DNA from: Neisseriaceae bacterium
GTDB taxonomy: Bacteria; Pseudomonadota; Gammaproteobacteria; Burkholderiales; UBA11063
Assembly (NCBI GenBank): GCA_003963245.1
Contig: RXJX01000007.1
Coordinates: 62,001-126,000, forward strand
Direction: 5' to 3'
Length of the DNA: 64,000 nt
Positions 17,316 through 42,476 of the stretch are shown piece after piece. Position 1 is the stretch's first letter, and each line of letters opens with the position of its first letter. The translations under genes were made by a program, and so were the position numbers. The notes beneath the pieces were generated by a model. That model did no database searches. It was not told where the DNA came from and worked only from the letters and a program-made list of their open reading frames with translations.

Positions 17316-17493
17316 TGTGACTCAGGCTCTCAAACAAAAATGTAACAAGCTCTATTTTACCTTAACCGTGAAGTGGATTATCATTTAATTATTGAAATTA
17401 TTTCTGCCTAGCGCTACTGTTAGCAAATAAGCAGATTGTATGTTTTATAATAACCCTAATTTAACTGATATTTAAGCGTGATATGGACTGATA

Positions 17494-17502
17494 TGGTATA
17501 AT
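17494..17502 (+). promoter_or_regulatory. Candidate extended -10 promoter for fabI operon
   Basis: TGGTATAAT at 17494-17502 is a consensus TATAAT with an upstream TG; no good -35 is visible. It lies about 93 bases before the fabI ATG in a divergent intergenic region with pgl. Confidence 0.45.
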
Positions 17503-17594
17503 CCCAAGCCTGATAAGATCAGCAAAAAATAATTTGGGTGAGATATTAAGATTATATTTTATCAATTTAACCAACATTAGATAGGAGTCATGTA

Positions 17595-18380
17595 ATGGGG
17601 TTTTTACAAGGTAAGAAAATTCTAATAACAGGTTTAATTTCAGACCGCTCAATCGCTTATGGTGTGGCAAAAGCTTGTCATGCACAGGGTGCTGAGTTGG
17701 CATTTACCTATCAAACCGAAAAATATGCTGAGCGTGTTGCCGGCTTTGCTAAAGATTTTGGTTCTTCATTAGTATATCCATTGGATGTAAGTGATGATGC
17801 CCAAATTGAGCAATTATTTACTAATCTTGGACAAGCATGGGATGGTTTAGATGGCGTTTTGCATTCAATTGCCTATACGCCTAAAAAAGGATTGCTTGGT
17901 GATTTTGTTGAAAATATTGATCGTGAAACATTCCGGATGTCAAATGATATTTCTGCTTATAGTTTTATTGCCTTAGCTCGTGCAGCGCGTCCGTTGATGC
18001 AAGGGCGTAATGGTTCTTTAATTTGTTTGAGCTATTTGGGTGGTGAGCGAGTATTGCCAAACTATAACATGGCAGGGATTGCCAAAGCCGCATTGGAGTC
18101 ATCTACTCGTTATATGGCGTATGCAATGGGCGAAGAAGGAATCCGAGTTAATGCGGTATCCGCAGGACCAATCAAGACCTTAGCTGCCAGCGGAATTGGT
18201 GGTTTTGGTAAAATTTTAGACCATATGGCAAAATTTGCGCCACTAAAACGTGGTGTTACGACCGAAGAAGTTGGTAATGCTGCCGCGTTTTTATTTTCAT
18301 CTCTAGCTAGTGGTATAACTGGCGAAGTTCTTTATGTTGATGCAGGATACAATATTACGGCAGGTGGTTTAGAGGGGTAA
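17595..18380 (+). CDS. fabI: Enoyl-[acyl-carrier-protein] reductase (NADH)
   Basis: Catalyses the last reduction of each fatty acid elongation cycle. The 261 residues show the FabI-type nucleotide site [17 protein letters not shown] and the catalytic pair Tyr157/Lys164 (YNMAGIAK) with Tyr147 just before ([12 protein letters not shown]), matching E. coli Tyr146/Tyr156/Lys163. TAGGAGT precedes the ATG. It is followed six bases later by kdsD, so fatty-acid and LPS-core genes may share a transcript. Confidence 0.96.
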
Positions 18381-23586: not shown

Positions 23587-23645
23587 CACCAGTTTTCAAG
23601 TAACTGATTAACTCTAGGGCGGATTGTAACCGCTTATGCTGTGTG

Positions 23646-24038
23646 ATGTCAAGTTTTAATTTTACTGATGATAGAGCGAGGGAGCCTGTTAGCGTAACCA
23701 ATATGGCATTGGAAGAGTGTTGTATTGGTCATGGAATAGATGCAATTAATTTTGATAGTAGATATTATTATAAACTACAAGTATTCAAACGTCAGTTTAA
23801 TATCTATAATAGTGCAGGTACGGCGTTTGAATCAATAAACAGGGACAAGTTAAATGGCTTGAGCTTTACAACCCCTAATGATGAAATTATTAAATCGTTT
23901 GAATATATTATTAGTAGAATTGATGAAGAGATATATAATAATCATTTAGAAGTATTAAATTTACAAAATCCACGTGATATACTTTTGCCAAAATTAATAT
24001 CAGTTGAAGTGAACACTTCTGTAGGGAGATATCTATGA
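23646..24038 (+). pseudogene. Type I restriction specificity subunit (HsdS), C-terminal fragment
   Basis: About 130 residues match only the second target-recognition domain tail and C-terminal conserved coiled coil of HsdS: EECCIGHGIDAINFDS, RQFNIYNSAGTAFESINRDK, then PNDEIIKSFEYIISRIDEE and LQNPRDILLPKLISVEVN. Full HsdS is about 400 residues, so most of the gene is gone. hsdM and hsdR are not in the window. The frame is still open and its TGA overlaps the next ATG (ATGA), which suggests the downstream gene was part of the same restriction operon. The 5' break point lies somewhere near the 23551-23586 palindrome. Confidence 0.78.
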
Positions 24039-24766
24039 ATTATAAAATGATTGCATTGCAAATTGGAGATGCAATTAAGTATAGTACCTCATTAAAAAAT
24101 ATTGATCTTGCAGCAACCTCAGTTTTTAATTTTTCATGTGAGCATTTTATTGTTTCTGACGTAAATATCACATCTGATAGAGCATCACGATTTATTGATT
24201 GGATATTTACTCTAGCTAAGCAGAATATTCCATTTGATGATAAAAACATTAAGTTAAAACAGTTTATTGATATGGTAATAAGTAAGTTGTCACCAGATAT
24301 ACAGGAACAAGCTTTATCCATATACAAAAATGCTGGTTTTAGCGATGGTAATAGTCTGTGGGATGAGTTTTTCGAGAGAAAATACCATCATTCAGTTGTT
24401 CTACATTCTCGAGAACTTTTTGTCTCAGGATTTTATTTCCATGCCGTATTTGAAGCATCTAAGGCATTTAATAAAGAAACTCAGAAAAAATCTCGAAGTG
24501 ATAAGGATGGTTATCAATTAATGATGGACGTTTTTTCTTTGAAAGGCTCTTTAAAACTAAATGCAGGGCAAACACAAACAGAACAAAATGTACAAGAAGG
24601 TGTGAAGTTTTTGTCAGCAGGTTTAATGCAAGCAGTAAGAAATCCGACGGCTCATGAAACGGCTTTAGATTGGGGGATAGCTAAAGAAGATTGTTTAGAC
24701 TTGCTTAGCTTTATTTCTTATCTATTTAAACAACTGGATAAATCAGTTTTTGTTATGGTAAATTAA
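24035..24766 (+). CDS. HEPN-type protein, TIGR02391/Ymh-like
   Basis: A 243-residue soluble protein. The C-terminal half (from about residue 110) has HHSVVLHSRELFVSGFYFHA and LMQAVRNPTAHETALDW, where Arg202-x4-His207 is the Rx4-6H active-site motif of HEPN ribonucleases. This arrangement matches the Ymh/TIGR02391 group, often found beside restriction systems. It starts on the stop of the hsdS fragment (ATGA overlap), so it looks like a survivor of a type I restriction locus. RNA cleavage is inferred from the motif only. The N-terminal 100 residues were not recognised. Confidence 0.72.
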   Translation: MNYKMIALQIGDAIKYSTSLKNIDLAATSVFNFSCEHFIVSDVNITSDRASRFIDWIFTLAKQNIPFDDKNIKLKQFIDMVISKLSPDIQEQALSIYKNAGFSDGNSLWDEFFERKYHHSVVLHSRELFVSGFYFHAVFEASKAFNKETQKKSRSDKDGYQLMMDVFSLKGSLKLNAGQTQTEQNVQEGVKFLSAGLMQAVRNPTAHETALDWGIAKEDCLDLLSFISYLFKQLDKSVFVMVN

Positions 24767-24786
24767 TAGTTTTTTTGGAGAGTAAA

Positions 24787-25248
24787 GTGGATTCAGTAAT
24801 TGGATGGTTTCTAAAAATAAGTGACAGTGTTTTCATACATTTGTGGTCAAAACCAAGAATGAAAATGATAGAAATAATTAATGAGGGTGGGCTCTTTGGT
24901 AATATTTATATAACGCTAGGGGTCCAAAACAAAAAAAATCTTGAACTTGAAATTTATGAGTTATATGGAGCTCATAAAAATATCTCTGAAATATTACCCA
25001 TTCACGATTATGAAAACAAATTACCTGTCACAATAAAACCATTCCAGCATGAAAAATTAGTTCTGGTTTTTAATTGGACGTTATTTTACAATTATTATGG
25101 CAATGTCACTTCGGAGTCAATTAATGAAGTGTGTGAATTGATATCTGAATCAACAATCATGCTGAACTCAAATCAAGGAAATTACAAACATACTTTTTCT
25201 CGGCAAGAGAAAAAACAAATAAAAAATTCTTGCAGCGTTAATAATTAG
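24787..25248 (+). CDS. Hypothetical protein, island gene
   Basis: Not recognised. A 153-residue protein read from GTG at 24787, chosen because GGAG at 24777-24780 is well spaced for it. There is no signal peptide or membrane helix. It has a short hydrophobic start (VIGWFLKISDSVFIHLW), a strand-rich middle (GNIYITLGVQNKKNLELEIYEL) and a lysine-rich tail. The DNA is more AT-rich than the core genes around it. It lies between the HEPN gene and the split membrane gene on the same strand and probably shares their transcript. Confidence 0.55.
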   Translation: MDSVIGWFLKISDSVFIHLWSKPRMKMIEIINEGGLFGNIYITLGVQNKKNLELEIYELYGAHKNISEILPIHDYENKLPVTIKPFQHEKLVLVFNWTLFYNYYGNVTSESINEVCELISESTIMLNSNQGNYKHTFSRQEKKQIKNSCSVNN

Positions 25249-25297: not shown

Positions 25298-25621
25298 ATG
25301 TGTGATAAATGTTGTTGTAGCTGTATAAAAGCTTGTGTTAAGAATATATTACAAAAACTTATACTTCTAGTTACAGGGTTTTCATTAAAATATTTTAAAT
25401 TCTTATATGAAGGATTTGTTAAATATCCTTTTAGAAGTGTAACCTCTTCAATATTAATAATATCTTTATTTATATATTCGCTGAGACTTTATGCTTTCGA
25501 ATATCTTTATTTGATAAAGGCCTCATACTTTGTACAAGACGATATTGTTTTAAAGTTATGGGATGCTTTTTTTCGTTTGTGTATACATTACAGGGTGAAA
25601 TTTGGCGAATGTGTTTATTAA
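25298..25621 (+). CDS. Membrane protein, upstream part of split gene
   Basis: Start at ATG 25298 after TTTGGAGGAG. The N terminus is cysteine-rich (CDKCCCSCIKACVKN), then comes a hydrophobic helix region (SSILIISLFIYSLRLYAF). The zero frame ends at 25621, but 16 codons earlier a T7 run (25567-25573) sits exactly in frame as T-TTT-TTT. A -1 shift there joins this frame to the 25558-26040 frame, giving a continuous 247-residue membrane protein. The last 16 residues of this frame (RLCIHYRVKFGECVY) show no membrane character and look like out-of-frame reading. Confidence 0.55.
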   Translation: MCDKCCCSCIKACVKNILQKLILLVTGFSLKYFKFLYEGFVKYPFRSVTSSILIISLFIYSLRLYAFEYLYLIKASYFVQDDIVLKLWDAFFRLCIHYRVKFGECVY

Positions 25622-26040
25622 TTTTATTCATAGTGCTTTATTTAACACTGCCAGTTTTTACAATGAAAAATTCTTTTAAACAATTTAAAAATGAAATGGG
25701 GTTAGGTTTAAAGCAAAAATTATTTAAGTACCCAGAATTAGTTATTCTTGTCATAGTAACACCTTTTTTATGGTTGATTGCAGCCCTCGGGTTTTTATAT
25801 TTTTGCAGTAATTTTATAAATGCAATTAAAATTGGTTATGTACATAGTAATACTAGATTTTGTAGAGTCGTAAATAATGGAGAGTCAGAGATTATTGTTG
25901 CAAAACCAGATGTACCATATCAATTAATTTTTGTTGAATCTGGCATTATTTATGATAAGCCAAATGAATCTAAAATATTTATTAAAACTTATACAGAGAG
26001 TGAAATATCTACAATGAAAGAATTATGTAGCGACAAATGA
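25558..26040 (+). CDS. Membrane protein, downstream part of split gene
   Basis: This frame continues the membrane protein after the T7 run: two strong helices (MCLLILFIVLYLTLPVF and ELVILVIVTPFLWLIAALGF), then a soluble tail of about 85 residues that is strand-rich (SEIIVAKPDVPYQLIFVESG). The frame's own first ATG (25558) has no ribosome site and lies inside the upstream frame, so independent starting is unlikely. Expression probably needs a -1 frameshift or a T-run length change. No family was recognised. Confidence 0.5.
   Translation: MGCFFSFVYTLQGEIWRMCLLILFIVLYLTLPVFTMKNSFKQFKNEMGLGLKQKLFKYPELVILVIVTPFLWLIAALGFLYFCSNFINAIKIGYVHSNTRFCRVVNNGESEIIVAKPDVPYQLIFVESGIIYDKPNESKIFIKTYTESEISTMKELCSDK
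25567..25573 (+). other. T7 slippery heptamer / frame break
   Basis: Seven T residues phased as gc[T TTT TTT]cg in the upstream frame, the X-XXY-YYZ form required for -1 ribosomal slippage. After slipping, the next codon is TCG at 25573 and the downstream frame stays open to 26040. One extra T would also join the frames. No strong downstream stem was worked out by eye. Confidence 0.6.
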
Positions 26041-26079: not shown

Positions 26080-27333
26080 ATGAAAGATATTAAAATGCAA
26101 AAAGAACGATTGATAATAAAAAATTTTTTTACTTTAAAAGATGTTGATATAGAGCTTGGCAAATATAACGTATTTATCGGCGAGCAAGCCAGCGGTAAAA
26201 GCTTGCTGTTGAAATTGATTTATTTCTTTCGAAATGTATTAAGGGTTCCAATTTATAGTTACGCAAACAGTGAAGATGATATTAGGCTATATGTGTACAA
26301 CTATTTTCAACAGCTATTTAGAGTTGATTACGGACCAAATGATGATCTTAGTATTGAATACCATTATAATGAATACTTAATATCTGTTAAATCTGAAGAA
26401 GGTAGAATCATTTTTATTTGTTCAGATAATTTAATGCAGCTTTATGATGATTCTAGACAATACATTACAAGAATTAGCCAACAGACTCCTGAAGCTCCCA
26501 ATCTTAATTTAAAGCAAGGGGTAATTCAGTCTAATATTGTTGATATCTTGGAACGGTCTGATTTAAAGGCGGTTAATTCGCCATTATTTTTTCCTGCCGG
26601 TAGAATGTTTCTGGTTAGCTTGCAAAGAAATATTTTTAATATGATTAACTCTATTAATGCGGATAGTAAGCTGCCAAGTATTGATCCGTTGATATTGCTA
26701 TTCGGGCAGCAATACCAAACTGCAATTGAATATTTTGGACAGACATCCAAAGAATATATACAAACTATGCATAAAGATGGGCAAATTAAATTTTTTGATA
26801 ATTTATTTATGGCTATTCTAAAGGGTAAATTTGTTTATGATCAATTAGGCGGTTTTATCCAGCAAAATTCTGGAGCTGTCCGTTCATGGCATAGTTCATC
26901 TGGGCAACAGGAAACATTGCCAATTTATTTAGTGTTACGGAACTATCTATTGAGTAGTCAACCTAGTCATTTATATATTGAAGAGCCGGAAGCGCACTTA
27001 TATCCATCGGCGCAAAAGGCAATTACCGAATTATTGGTTTATGTAACCAATGTAACCAGTAGCGATGGATTGTATATTACCACCCATAGCCCGTATATTT
27101 TAACGGTACTGAATAATCTGATTTTGGCAAATGATGTTAAGGATAAACAGACGCTATTTGATAAAGATTTGTTGATATCGTTTGAAGAAGTTCGGGCGTA
27201 TTATATTACCGATGGTGGTGCGCGGGATTTGCGTGATTATGAAAATCGCCTGATTTTAGCCGACAATCTGGATAAAGTATCCGAGCAGACCGCATTGGAT
27301 TTTGATAAATTGCTGGATTTAAAATATGAGTAG
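26080..27333 (+). CDS. AAA family ATPase (ABC/OLD-like, AAA_15/AAA_21 type)
   Basis: A 417-residue ATPase of the SMC/ABC-like AAA group used by many defence systems. Walker A is GEQASGKS near residue 35; the ABC-like signature SSSGQQE is near 275; Walker B is HLYIEEPEAHLYPSAQ near 307; the H-loop is TTHSPYIL. No nuclease domain is fused to it. Its last 8 bases overlap a small nuclease-like gene, so the two are probably translated together and act as a pair. The first third is visibly more AT-rich than the last third, which hints at mosaic origin. Phage defence is inferred from family and context. Confidence 0.8.
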   Translation: MKDIKMQKERLIIKNFFTLKDVDIELGKYNVFIGEQASGKSLLLKLIYFFRNVLRVPIYSYANSEDDIRLYVYNYFQQLFRVDYGPNDDLSIEYHYNEYLISVKSEEGRIIFICSDNLMQLYDDSRQYITRISQQTPEAPNLNLKQGVIQSNIVDILERSDLKAVNSPLFFPAGRMFLVSLQRNIFNMINSINADSKLPSIDPLILLFGQQYQTAIEYFGQTSKEYIQTMHKDGQIKFFDNLFMAILKGKFVYDQLGGFIQQNSGAVRSWHSSSGQQETLPIYLVLRNYLLSSQPSHLYIEEPEAHLYPSAQKAITELLVYVTNVTSSDGLYITTHSPYILTVLNNLILANDVKDKQTLFDKDLLISFEEVRAYYITDGGARDLRDYENRLILADNLDKVSEQTALDFDKLLDLKYE

Positions 27334-27739
27334 TTGTATTCAATCGGTAAATCACAGTCAGGTTAAGTGTGAGGAAAAACAGAGTAAATTTATTCTGTTA
27401 AATCCAGTACGTAAAAATATTGATTATATTGTGGTTGATGGCTGTCTTTATCCACGTGGACACCATGATTTATGTTGTGATTACGCGCTTAATTTTGATG
27501 ATAAGACGGTGCTTGTGGAGCTAAAAGGTAGCAATATCGCACACGCAATTAAACAAATTCTAGCGACGGAACAGGATGCTAAGTTTACAATAAATCCCCG
27601 TAAAACTGCGATAGTTGTCAGCAGTAAGACTCCGAAGAATGATCCTTCATTACAGGTTCAAAAAGCGAATTTGAAGAAGCGGCATATTACGCTACTTCAA
27701 AAGAATAGCCCATTTGAAAAAGACCTAGCAGAGTTTTAG
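27326..27739 (+). CDS. Small PD-(D/E)XK nuclease-like partner of the ATPase
   Basis: A 137-residue protein that starts inside the ATPase gene (ATGAG overlap, 8 bases). CCDYALNFDDKTVLVELKGSNIAHAIKQ has the D-(about 10)-ExK spacing and beta-beta-alpha order of the PD-(D/E)XK nuclease core, followed by a strand (KTAIVVSSKTP) as expected. No zinc finger or other domain is seen. A likely role is effector or DNA-cutting subunit of the ATPase. The nuclease call rests on motif spacing only. Confidence 0.6.
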   Translation: MSSCIQSVNHSQVKCEEKQSKFILLNPVRKNIDYIVVDGCLYPRGHHDLCCDYALNFDDKTVLVELKGSNIAHAIKQILATEQDAKFTINPRKTAIVVSSKTPKNDPSLQVQKANLKKRHITLLQKNSPFEKDLAEF

Positions 27740-27750
27740 AAAGACATAGC

Positions 27751-28374
27751 ATGAACCATACTATTAATCAACAGATAATAAATCAGATTCAACTTCATTA
27801 TGAAAATATACCATTAGCTGTATTCTTAGTTGGTACTAACGGAAGTGGAAAAAGCTCATTGCGTAATTATCTGAATTTGAGCGATATTCAAACTAACATT
27901 GATCCAGATGTTTTGAATCGAGTGTATCGGGCAAAATATCCAGATACTTATCAAGTAGAAGCTGGCAAGCAAGCATTAAAAATGTATGATGATGCGTTAA
28001 AAAATGGCTTAAATATTTGCTTGGAAAGTACTTTGGCTGGACGGGGTACTATGCAAAGAATTATTGCTGCCAAGAGTGCTGGGTATTTTACCTTAGCTTA
28101 TTATATTGGTTTAAATAGTGTTGAATTAAATTTGGAACGGATTGCACAACGTGTGGCTCGTGGTGGACATGATATTCCCGAAAATACCGTACGGCGCCGT
28201 TTTCATGAGTCTGCCAATAATCTGGTGCTAGTTAAAAACTATTTAGATGAAGTTTATTTACTAGATAATAGTGGAGCTAATTTTGAGCTACAGTCATCTA
28301 TAAGGGCTAATAAAAAGAACAAATATCAAAACTCTGAGAAACCATGGGCTAGGGAGTTAATTGCACGTTTGTAA
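27751..28374 (+). CDS. Zeta-toxin-like P-loop kinase
   Basis: A 207-residue protein with Walker A LVGTNGSGKSSLRNYL near residue 27, NIDPDVLNR as the substrate-binding acid, CLESTLAG, and ERIAQRVARGGHDIPENTVRRR, the arginine-rich block typical of zeta-toxin/UDP-N-acetylglucosamine kinase relatives. No epsilon antitoxin homologue lies next to it, and the upstream gene is the nuclease-like partner (11-base gap). It may be a solitary zeta-like protein, common on chromosomes, or may belong to the ATPase-nuclease unit. Confidence 0.75.
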   Translation: MNHTINQQIINQIQLHYENIPLAVFLVGTNGSGKSSLRNYLNLSDIQTNIDPDVLNRVYRAKYPDTYQVEAGKQALKMYDDALKNGLNICLESTLAGRGTMQRIIAAKSAGYFTLAYYIGLNSVELNLERIAQRVARGGHDIPENTVRRRFHESANNLVLVKNYLDEVYLLDNSGANFELQSSIRANKKNKYQNSEKPWARELIARL

Positions 28375-28436
28375 GTAGTTGTAAACTTTGTGTAAATGAC
28401 TATAATCAGAATATTAAATATTTCAAAGAGGAAATT

Positions 28437-40663: not shown

Positions 40664-41671
40664 ATGTTAGGGTCATTTCATTTTATACGTCCATGGTGGT
40701 GGTTGGCACTAATTCCAGCGCTCTTGATTGTTATTTTATGGTATAAAAAATCTCATGCAAGTAATAATAATTGGAAAGAATACTGCGATCCACATTTACT
40801 TGAGCATATTTTAGTCGGTACGCCTTCTGCTCGTTCAAATTGGTTGCTTGCGCTATTTGCATTAGTTTGGCTTTTTATGGTATTTGCACTAAGTGGTCCC
40901 AGCTGGTCACGTTATGCTGCACCTGTTTATCAAAAAAATATTGCTCGGGTTATTGTCCTAGATGTTTCACAATCAATGAATGCTACCGATATTACACCTT
41001 CGCGTATGCAACGGGCTAAATATAAGGTTCTTGATTTGCTGCATGCAATCAAAGAAGGGCAGACCGGAATGGTGGTTTTTTCAAGCAGTGCATTCGTCGT
41101 CTCTCCACTAACTGCAGATAGCAATACTATCGCTTCAATGGTACCAGTGCTTGATTCAAATATTGTGCCAGTGCAAGGTTCGGATATTGCAGCGGGACTA
41201 GCTAAGGCTGGCGAGCTATTTAAACAATCAGGTTCAACCCGTGGTGAAATTATCTTGATTACTGACAGTTCTCCATCTGCGAGTGCATTGACTGAGGCTA
41301 CTAATTTGGCAAAACAAGGGTTTGTGACTTCTGTTTTGGCAATTGGAACCAAAGAAGGAACACCTGCGAGAGACAATAATGGTAATTTTGCAACTGATGC
41401 TAATGGTAATATTAGTTTAGCTCACCTCGATAGCAGTGGTTTAGAAAAGCTGGCACAAGCAGGAAACGGTGAATACGTAGGGTTTACAGGAGATAATTCA
41501 GATGTTGATGGCTTGCTGAAAGCTGCTACTTTGAATGATCTTGATGCTAAAGCTTCTGCTGAGTCGCAAACTGAAAGTTTATGGCAGGATCGTGGCGATT
41601 ATTTGATTTGGGTAGCATTAATTTTAGTTGCATTCTTAGCTCGTAGAGGTTGGTTGGAGAAAATATGTTAG
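40664..41671 (+). CDS. batB: VWA domain membrane protein, BatB-like
   Basis: A 335-residue paralogue of batA: helices near 10-25 and 60-78, VWA domain with LDVSQSMNATDITPSRMQRAK as a MIDAS (DxSxS), ITDSSPSAS, and a C-terminal helix (LIWVALILVAFLARRG). It follows batA by one base and overlaps batC by 7 bases. BatA and BatB probably pair across the membrane. Confidence 0.88.
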   Translation: MLGSFHFIRPWWWLALIPALLIVILWYKKSHASNNNWKEYCDPHLLEHILVGTPSARSNWLLALFALVWLFMVFALSGPSWSRYAAPVYQKNIARVIVLDVSQSMNATDITPSRMQRAKYKVLDLLHAIKEGQTGMVVFSSSAFVVSPLTADSNTIASMVPVLDSNIVPVQGSDIAAGLAKAGELFKQSGSTRGEIILITDSSPSASALTEATNLAKQGFVTSVLAIGTKEGTPARDNNGNFATDANGNISLAHLDSSGLEKLAQAGNGEYVGFTGDNSDVDGLLKAATLNDLDAKASAESQTESLWQDRGDYLIWVALILVAFLARRGWLEKIC

Positions 41672-42476
41672 GGTCAAAATTAATACCGCAGCGTATGGCG
41701 CTTCGCGGAATTGGTGTAGTGCTTAGCTTGATGTTGTCCAATTCTGCTTTTGCCTTCAGTTTTCAAGATTTATGGTTTAATCAGAATCAACAAGCAGCAA
41801 GGTTATTAGATCAGCAAAAGAATAGTGAAGCAGCAGCAAAATTTAGTGATAATCATTGGAAGGGTGTTGCTTACTATCGCGATAAAAAATATGATCAAGC
41901 TTTGGAAGTGTTTAAGCAGGATAAAACTGCTAATGGTTGGTACAATCAAGGTAATACTTTAGCGCAAATGCAAAAATATCAGGAAGCCATTGATGCTTAT
42001 ACCAAAGCGCTGGAATTACAAAAAAATTTTCCAGATGCTCTGCATAATCGCGAATTGGTTAAAAAATTGAAGCAACAGCAAGAGCAACAAAATAAACAAG
42101 ATCAGAAAGATCAGAAAGATCAGAAAGATCAGAAAGATCAGAAAGATCAGAAAGATCAGAAAGATCAGAAAGATCAGAAAGATCAGAAAGAAAAAAAAAC
42201 AGCCCTGAAAATCCAGATAAGAAAGATAATCCGGCAGATAAGGCTAAACAAGATCAAAATCAGCAGCAGGCTCAGCAAAATCAAGCCAAGCCAACTCCAA
42301 CTCCGGGAGCTACGCCAACGCCAGCTGCAGCTAATAACATGAATAATAATCCGCAAAATTATCAGGATCAGGAGCTACGGGCCGCGTTATCACAAATTCC
42401 AGATGATCCGGGTGGGCTTTTAAGAAATAAATTTTTACGTGATTATCAAAATGAACAGCAGCAGGGTGGAAACTAA
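41665..42476 (+). CDS. batC: TPR protein, BatC-like, frame interrupted at A9 run
   Basis: Start at ATG 41665 after TTGGAGA. Signal peptide (ending SAFA), then TPR repeats (WYNQGNTLAQMQKYQEAIDAY). Ten DQK repeats follow, then a run of nine A (42191-42199). In the zero frame the reading drifts into a lysine-rich tail and stops at 42342. A -1 shift at the A run restores NSPENPDKKDNPADKAKQD and ends with SQIPDDPGGLLRNKF, the usual BatC ending, with TAA at 42474-42476 overlapping the batD ATG. The shifted product is 270 residues. So the gene is either slippage-dependent, phase variable, recently broken, or misread. Confidence 0.8.
42100..42189 (+). repeat. Ten perfect copies of a 9-bp tandem repeat
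   Basis: GATCAGAAA is repeated ten times without any change, encoding Asp-Gln-Lys each time within batC. Because the unit is nine bases, copy-number change keeps the frame. Perfect identity, including synonymous positions, suggests recent expansion. Confidence 0.95.
42191..42199 (+). other. A9 slippery run / frame break in batC
   Basis: Zero-frame codons GAA-AAA-AAA-ACA present a perfect A-AAA-AAA heptamer. A -1 slip gives AAC-AGC-CCT and continues to 42476. One more A would also join the frames. Confidence 0.65.

Follow-up and report, generated by a model that had tools for sequence, protein, structure and literature searches.

Is a gene whose reading frame changes at a run of seven T (T7) a working switch, or a gene that has lost its frame? 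This question is raised by two overlapping ORFs in the window (the whole stretch of 64,000 nucleotides that was analysed), which probably stems from a freshwater member of the genus Aquella. ORF1 (25298..25621, + strand; 107 aa; stop codon 25619-25621) starts with an ATG preceded by a strong SD sequence, GGAGGA, with a duplex of -9.3 kcal/mol. It covers an N-terminal extension, the first membrane segment and a loop. ORF2 (25558..26040, + strand; 160 aa) contains the second and third membrane segments followed by a C-terminal soluble region of ~80 residues. The T7 run (25567..25573, + strand) is the site of the coding-frame change. The original prediction had proposed that a -1 slip at this run joins the two frames into 247 residues, and the coordinates and the joined reading were confirmed. 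The codons in the zero frame are GCT TTT TTT CGT, i.e. the run is indeed in the proposed X-XXY-YYZ phase (T-TTT-TTT). Likewise, the upstream frame loses its membrane character beyond T7 as claimed: Hydropathy peaks of ORF1 are located at residues 7 and 52 only and none follows the run. In the joined reading, two further strong peaks appear, at 105 and 149. The claim that ORF2 has no ribosome binding site holds for ATG 25558, whose duplex with the anti-SD sequence amounts to only -0.6 kcal/mol, but not for a possible internal start codon (ATG, 25609..25611, + strand). The latter is preceded by an SD-like AGGG (-3.8 kcal/mol) that is no weaker than the site of the next gene (-3.3 kcal/mol). It is in frame with ORF2, overlaps the end of ORF1 and sits 10 nt before the ORF1 stop codon.

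Profile and pairwise searches yielded a homologue in genome G005 (MAG STD2_167). It comprises 225 aa (L010/L003; gene coordinates 5902-6579 in L010) and is encoded in one open frame across both halves. By sequence homology, ORF1 matches the N-terminal half of L010. ORF2 is 27-33% identical to L003/L010 and to L002/L011, a second copy in G005. The homologue alignment shifts frame at the T7 run; near this point, 'LELLNSFVYALGN' may be paired with 'LKLWDAFF|SFVYTLQGE' (residue placement by eye). According to hydropathy, the homologue has three membrane segments, which recur in the joined reading together with a weak N-terminal peak. Dicodon statistics, trained in frame on this genome, change from the ORF1 to the ORF2 frame within 25573-25582; the best position is 25580-25582, and the T7 run scores within ~2.4 log units of this optimum. 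Judged by homology, ORF1 and ORF2 are the two halves of one predicted membrane protein gene; L010 supports the earlier idea that both frames encode a single protein. L010 carries no T-run at the break position and L011 no T7 at the equivalent position. This means, neither the heptamer nor the split is conserved among the two homologous loci on which conservation was judged, both from one other genome. The original prediction had named a homologue with an uninterrupted frame and without a T-run as evidence against its proposal, and L010 is exactly such a homologue. The second copy (L002/L011) is a pseudogene with several stops and frame changes, which suggests that loss of the gene is tolerated in the family.

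The family has a narrow range. Members are present in two of the 23 genus genomes including the genome under study, and no relatives were found outside the genus in 399 genomes of the order, 398 genomes of the phylum, plasmids, phages and viral contigs. Neither the split gene nor its homologue yielded a match above the cut-off in Pfam or NCBIfam, or a match in PADLOC. A single-sequence fold model of the homologue was weak (pLDDT 57) and had no PDB match below E 0.001. Two matches in genome G017 (L006 and L009) proved unrelated on inspection and were dismissed.

The split gene is located in a type I restriction/defence island that is eroding. G014, the closest sister species, has the same island (in L017), with flanking proteins that are 87-94% identical. 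Four inner genes are common to G014 and the window, where all of them are on the + strand. These encode the Hypoth_Ymh/TIGR02391 protein (24035..24766; intact, dN/dS 0.11 vs. G014), a 157 aa protein with no family assigned (24775..25248; 72% aa identity in G014), an AAA ATPase similar to the candidate defence protein PDC-M29A (26080..27333; intact) and its PDC-M29B-like partner (27326..27739; intact, dN/dS 0.08). Between the 157-aa gene and the PDC-M29A gene, the segment 25216..26091 (+ strand) is without similarity to G014. It is regarded as an exchangeable cargo slot, because G014 carries a DUF4062 gene (L017 10633-11850) in place of the split gene. Of the type I restriction system, which is complete in G014 (hsdM, hsdS, hsdR), a remnant was found at 23643..24038 (+ strand): The first hsdM codons lead straight into the C-terminal part of hsdS; both genes are intact in L017. 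Relative to G014, this fusion amounts to a large internal deletion. A gene for a zeta-toxin-like P-loop protein (27751..28374, + strand) is found at the place of hsdR in G014; homology to G014 resumes past it at 28417, and hsdR is missing from its place. The island is not wholly dead, since purifying selection acts on its shared genes (dN/dS 0.08-0.26). A partnership of the membrane protein with PDC-M29A was considered and dismissed: The ATPase occurs in nine genus genomes and the membrane protein gene in none of the other eight, i.e. there is no conserved pairing. Compared between the sister species, the locus documents a swappable cargo slot and a type I restriction island that is being eroded in steps.

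How can the split be explained? We consider it probable, though well short of certain, that a genus-restricted cargo gene in the exchangeable slot of the eroding island lost its frame by a recent single-base loss in the T run and that the full-length protein is not usefully made. The gene product would be a small inner-membrane protein with three membrane segments and a C-terminal soluble domain. The recent loss of one base from the T run would have broken the frame, and translation would yield a 107-residue N-terminal fragment, with no useful level of full-length protein. Traces of the remainder might at most arise by background slippage at T7 or by reinitiation at ATG 25609. We infer that the change is present in the DNA of the organism and arose recently, and that the gene is no longer active. 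Base loss is supported by L010/L003, which are intact across the break and lack the T-run, and by the singleton nature of the split. In addition, the slot is differently filled in G014, hsdM and hsdS are fused and hsdR is gone. Slip-phase homopolymers are common by chance, and downstream RNA structure was not found (see below). Singleton frame changes have been assigned to indel mutation or sequencing error (PMC3711429). The split gene resembles the GeneTack singleton frameshift/pseudogene class described there in that it is found in one genome, has one frame change with homologue support and an unconserved heptamer. In contrast to that class, its homologue set is tiny and comprises two loci in one other genome. 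Two points speak for caution. The 247 codons contain a single lesion and both halves have kept a good coding signal, so either the gene was inactivated very recently, or the joined protein continues to be made. Furthermore, the selection on other island genes shows that the island is partly alive. Taken together, real base loss is most likely, assembly error comes next, and recoding or switching are only marginal. Of the four options left by the original prediction, programmed frameshifting and phase variation are not supported; decay or an assembly error fits best.

A sequencing or assembly error would mean that the organism carries an intact gene and that the length of the run was miscalled. 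Unlikely as we hold it to be, it stays a serious rival, since the window contains another gene that is out of frame, a batC-like gene broken at a run of nine A (A9), of which nine complete orthologues in the genus are intact. In addition, the assembly is a draft of 54 contigs, and many frameshift pseudogenes are known to be assembly artefacts (PMC11017572). However, the sampled 458 kb of this genome contain ~230 coding A/T runs of at least seven, of which very few coincide with apparent frame breaks. Moreover, a tblastn scan of ~160 kb of conserved coding DNA revealed one real-looking break only (L033, ~17.5 kb), and this is not at a homopolymer. Finally, the split gene belongs to disposable cargo, where real lesions are expected.

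Alternatively, a lesion might be tolerated: A ribosomal -1 shift or RNA polymerase slippage could provide a low but sufficient amount of full-length protein without any evolved signals. In E. coli, U_UU.U_UU.U is among the motifs that shift at >0.10% without stimulators (PMC4066793), and therefore, any such site should give a trace of joined product. Insertions by RNA polymerase cluster in A/T runs (PMC5574713), and the gene carries no other lesion. Nevertheless, seven T are short for polymerase slippage, and the same data contain no case in which the frame was restored (PMC5574713). T7 runs proved to be depleted in all phases compared with synonymous-codon shuffles, but least in the slip phase (45 observed vs. 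71.6 expected; 13 vs. 32.5 and 23 vs. 62.0 in the other phases). As the least depleted phase, slip-phase T7 is not specially avoided, unlike a strongly shift-prone site. Altogether, such tolerated slippage appears improbable.

Slip phase is the commonest T7 phase in the long ORFs of this genome, and 90 slip-phase A/T heptamers are present in 288 ORFs of at least 200 aa (356 kb). After nearly all of them, a stop codon is reached within a few dozen codons; only three of the 90 are followed by a -1 frame of >60 codons. The -1 frame after T7 in the split gene comprises 155 codons, which is longer than expected by chance. T7 and its phase are not unusual in this genome. A slippery-looking phase often arises by chance in AT-rich genomes and points only weakly to recoding. 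If the locus were a working switch, an unaided T7 could meter a membrane protein of a defence island. Slippage on a bare T7 that lacks stimulators, whether deliberate or tolerated, might maintain very low amounts of an Aquella-specific membrane protein encoded in a defence island beside a PDC-M29-like ATPase, but we regard this as very improbable.

Programmed -1 frameshifting, by which a short and a long product would be made by design, is hardly credible. The phase of the run is right, the 155 downstream codons are open, a second lesion is absent, and a GGGA is located just 5' of the slip site. In these features, an X-XXY-YYZ motif in phase and a long -1 frame, the split gene resembles the orfA/orfB pairs of the IS3 family and dnaX. 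Unlike these, it lacks a stimulatory hairpin, a well-placed SD sequence and conservation. The heptamer is absent from the homologues, and no other family member is split in such a way. Downstream RNA structure did not exceed that of shuffled sequences in three windows (z 0.60, 0.40 and -0.55). An SD-like stimulator was sought 6-17 nt upstream of T7; the best duplex found has a weak -4.0 kcal/mol and lies in a window ending ~2 nt short of the run, which is too close. An upstream hairpin (z -2.16) was judged incidental, as it was one of four windows tested. The motif itself is weak compared to A-AAA-AAG (PMC4066793). The switch suggested originally thus finds neither a conserved heptamer nor downstream structure nor a well-placed SD sequence, and slip-phase T7 runs are routine.

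Phase variation, i.e. switching of the gene by replication slippage that alters the length of the T-run, is equally hard to credit. In related Neisseria, homopolymers drive phase variation, with a cut-off of six repeats used for such tracts (PMC5084427). Like the contingency genes there, the split gene encodes a membrane protein and has a homopolymer at the frame change. In contrast to them, its T7 is short and its homologues lack the run; besides, ~80 T7 and 14 T8 coding runs are present in the sampled genome. Least credible of all is a membrane assembly of two distinct polypeptides, with translation coupled from the ORF1 stop (25621) to a restart at ATG 25609: The AGGG equals the SD sequence of the next gene and the overlap geometry fits reinitiation, but the homologue consists of one chain, and the ORF2 frame shows coding signal from the T-run onwards, ~30 nt upstream of this ATG.

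Some further frame changes were observed. The break in L033 (~17400-17680; G000:C13) affects a lipoprotein-like gene and is apparent, in comparison with G017, soon after the signal/linker region. Three other matches of the scan were discarded: L046 contains two neighbouring genes, fused into one in G017, and does not represent a break, L026 (17.6k) is weak and probably antisense, and L024 (8.3k) looks like RNase P RNA. The batC-like TPR gene (window 41650-42476) goes out of frame at A9 (42191-42199), which directly follows a 9-bp repeat of 10.4 copies (42098-42191). Its conserved tail (SQIPDDPGGLLRNKF; SQIPDDPGGLLRNKFLRDYQ) is in the -1 frame and ends at 42476, whereas the nine complete orthologues of the genus, which reach the tail, are intact. 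The contigs of three further relatives run off within the repeat, so this spot is apparently hard to assemble. Polymerase slippage or an assembly error is more plausible at A9 than at the T7 of the split gene. In one relative (L119; G008:C59), the batC-like linker contains a long QDQNK repeat array, and therefore, expansion of repeats in this linker is seen more than once in the genus.
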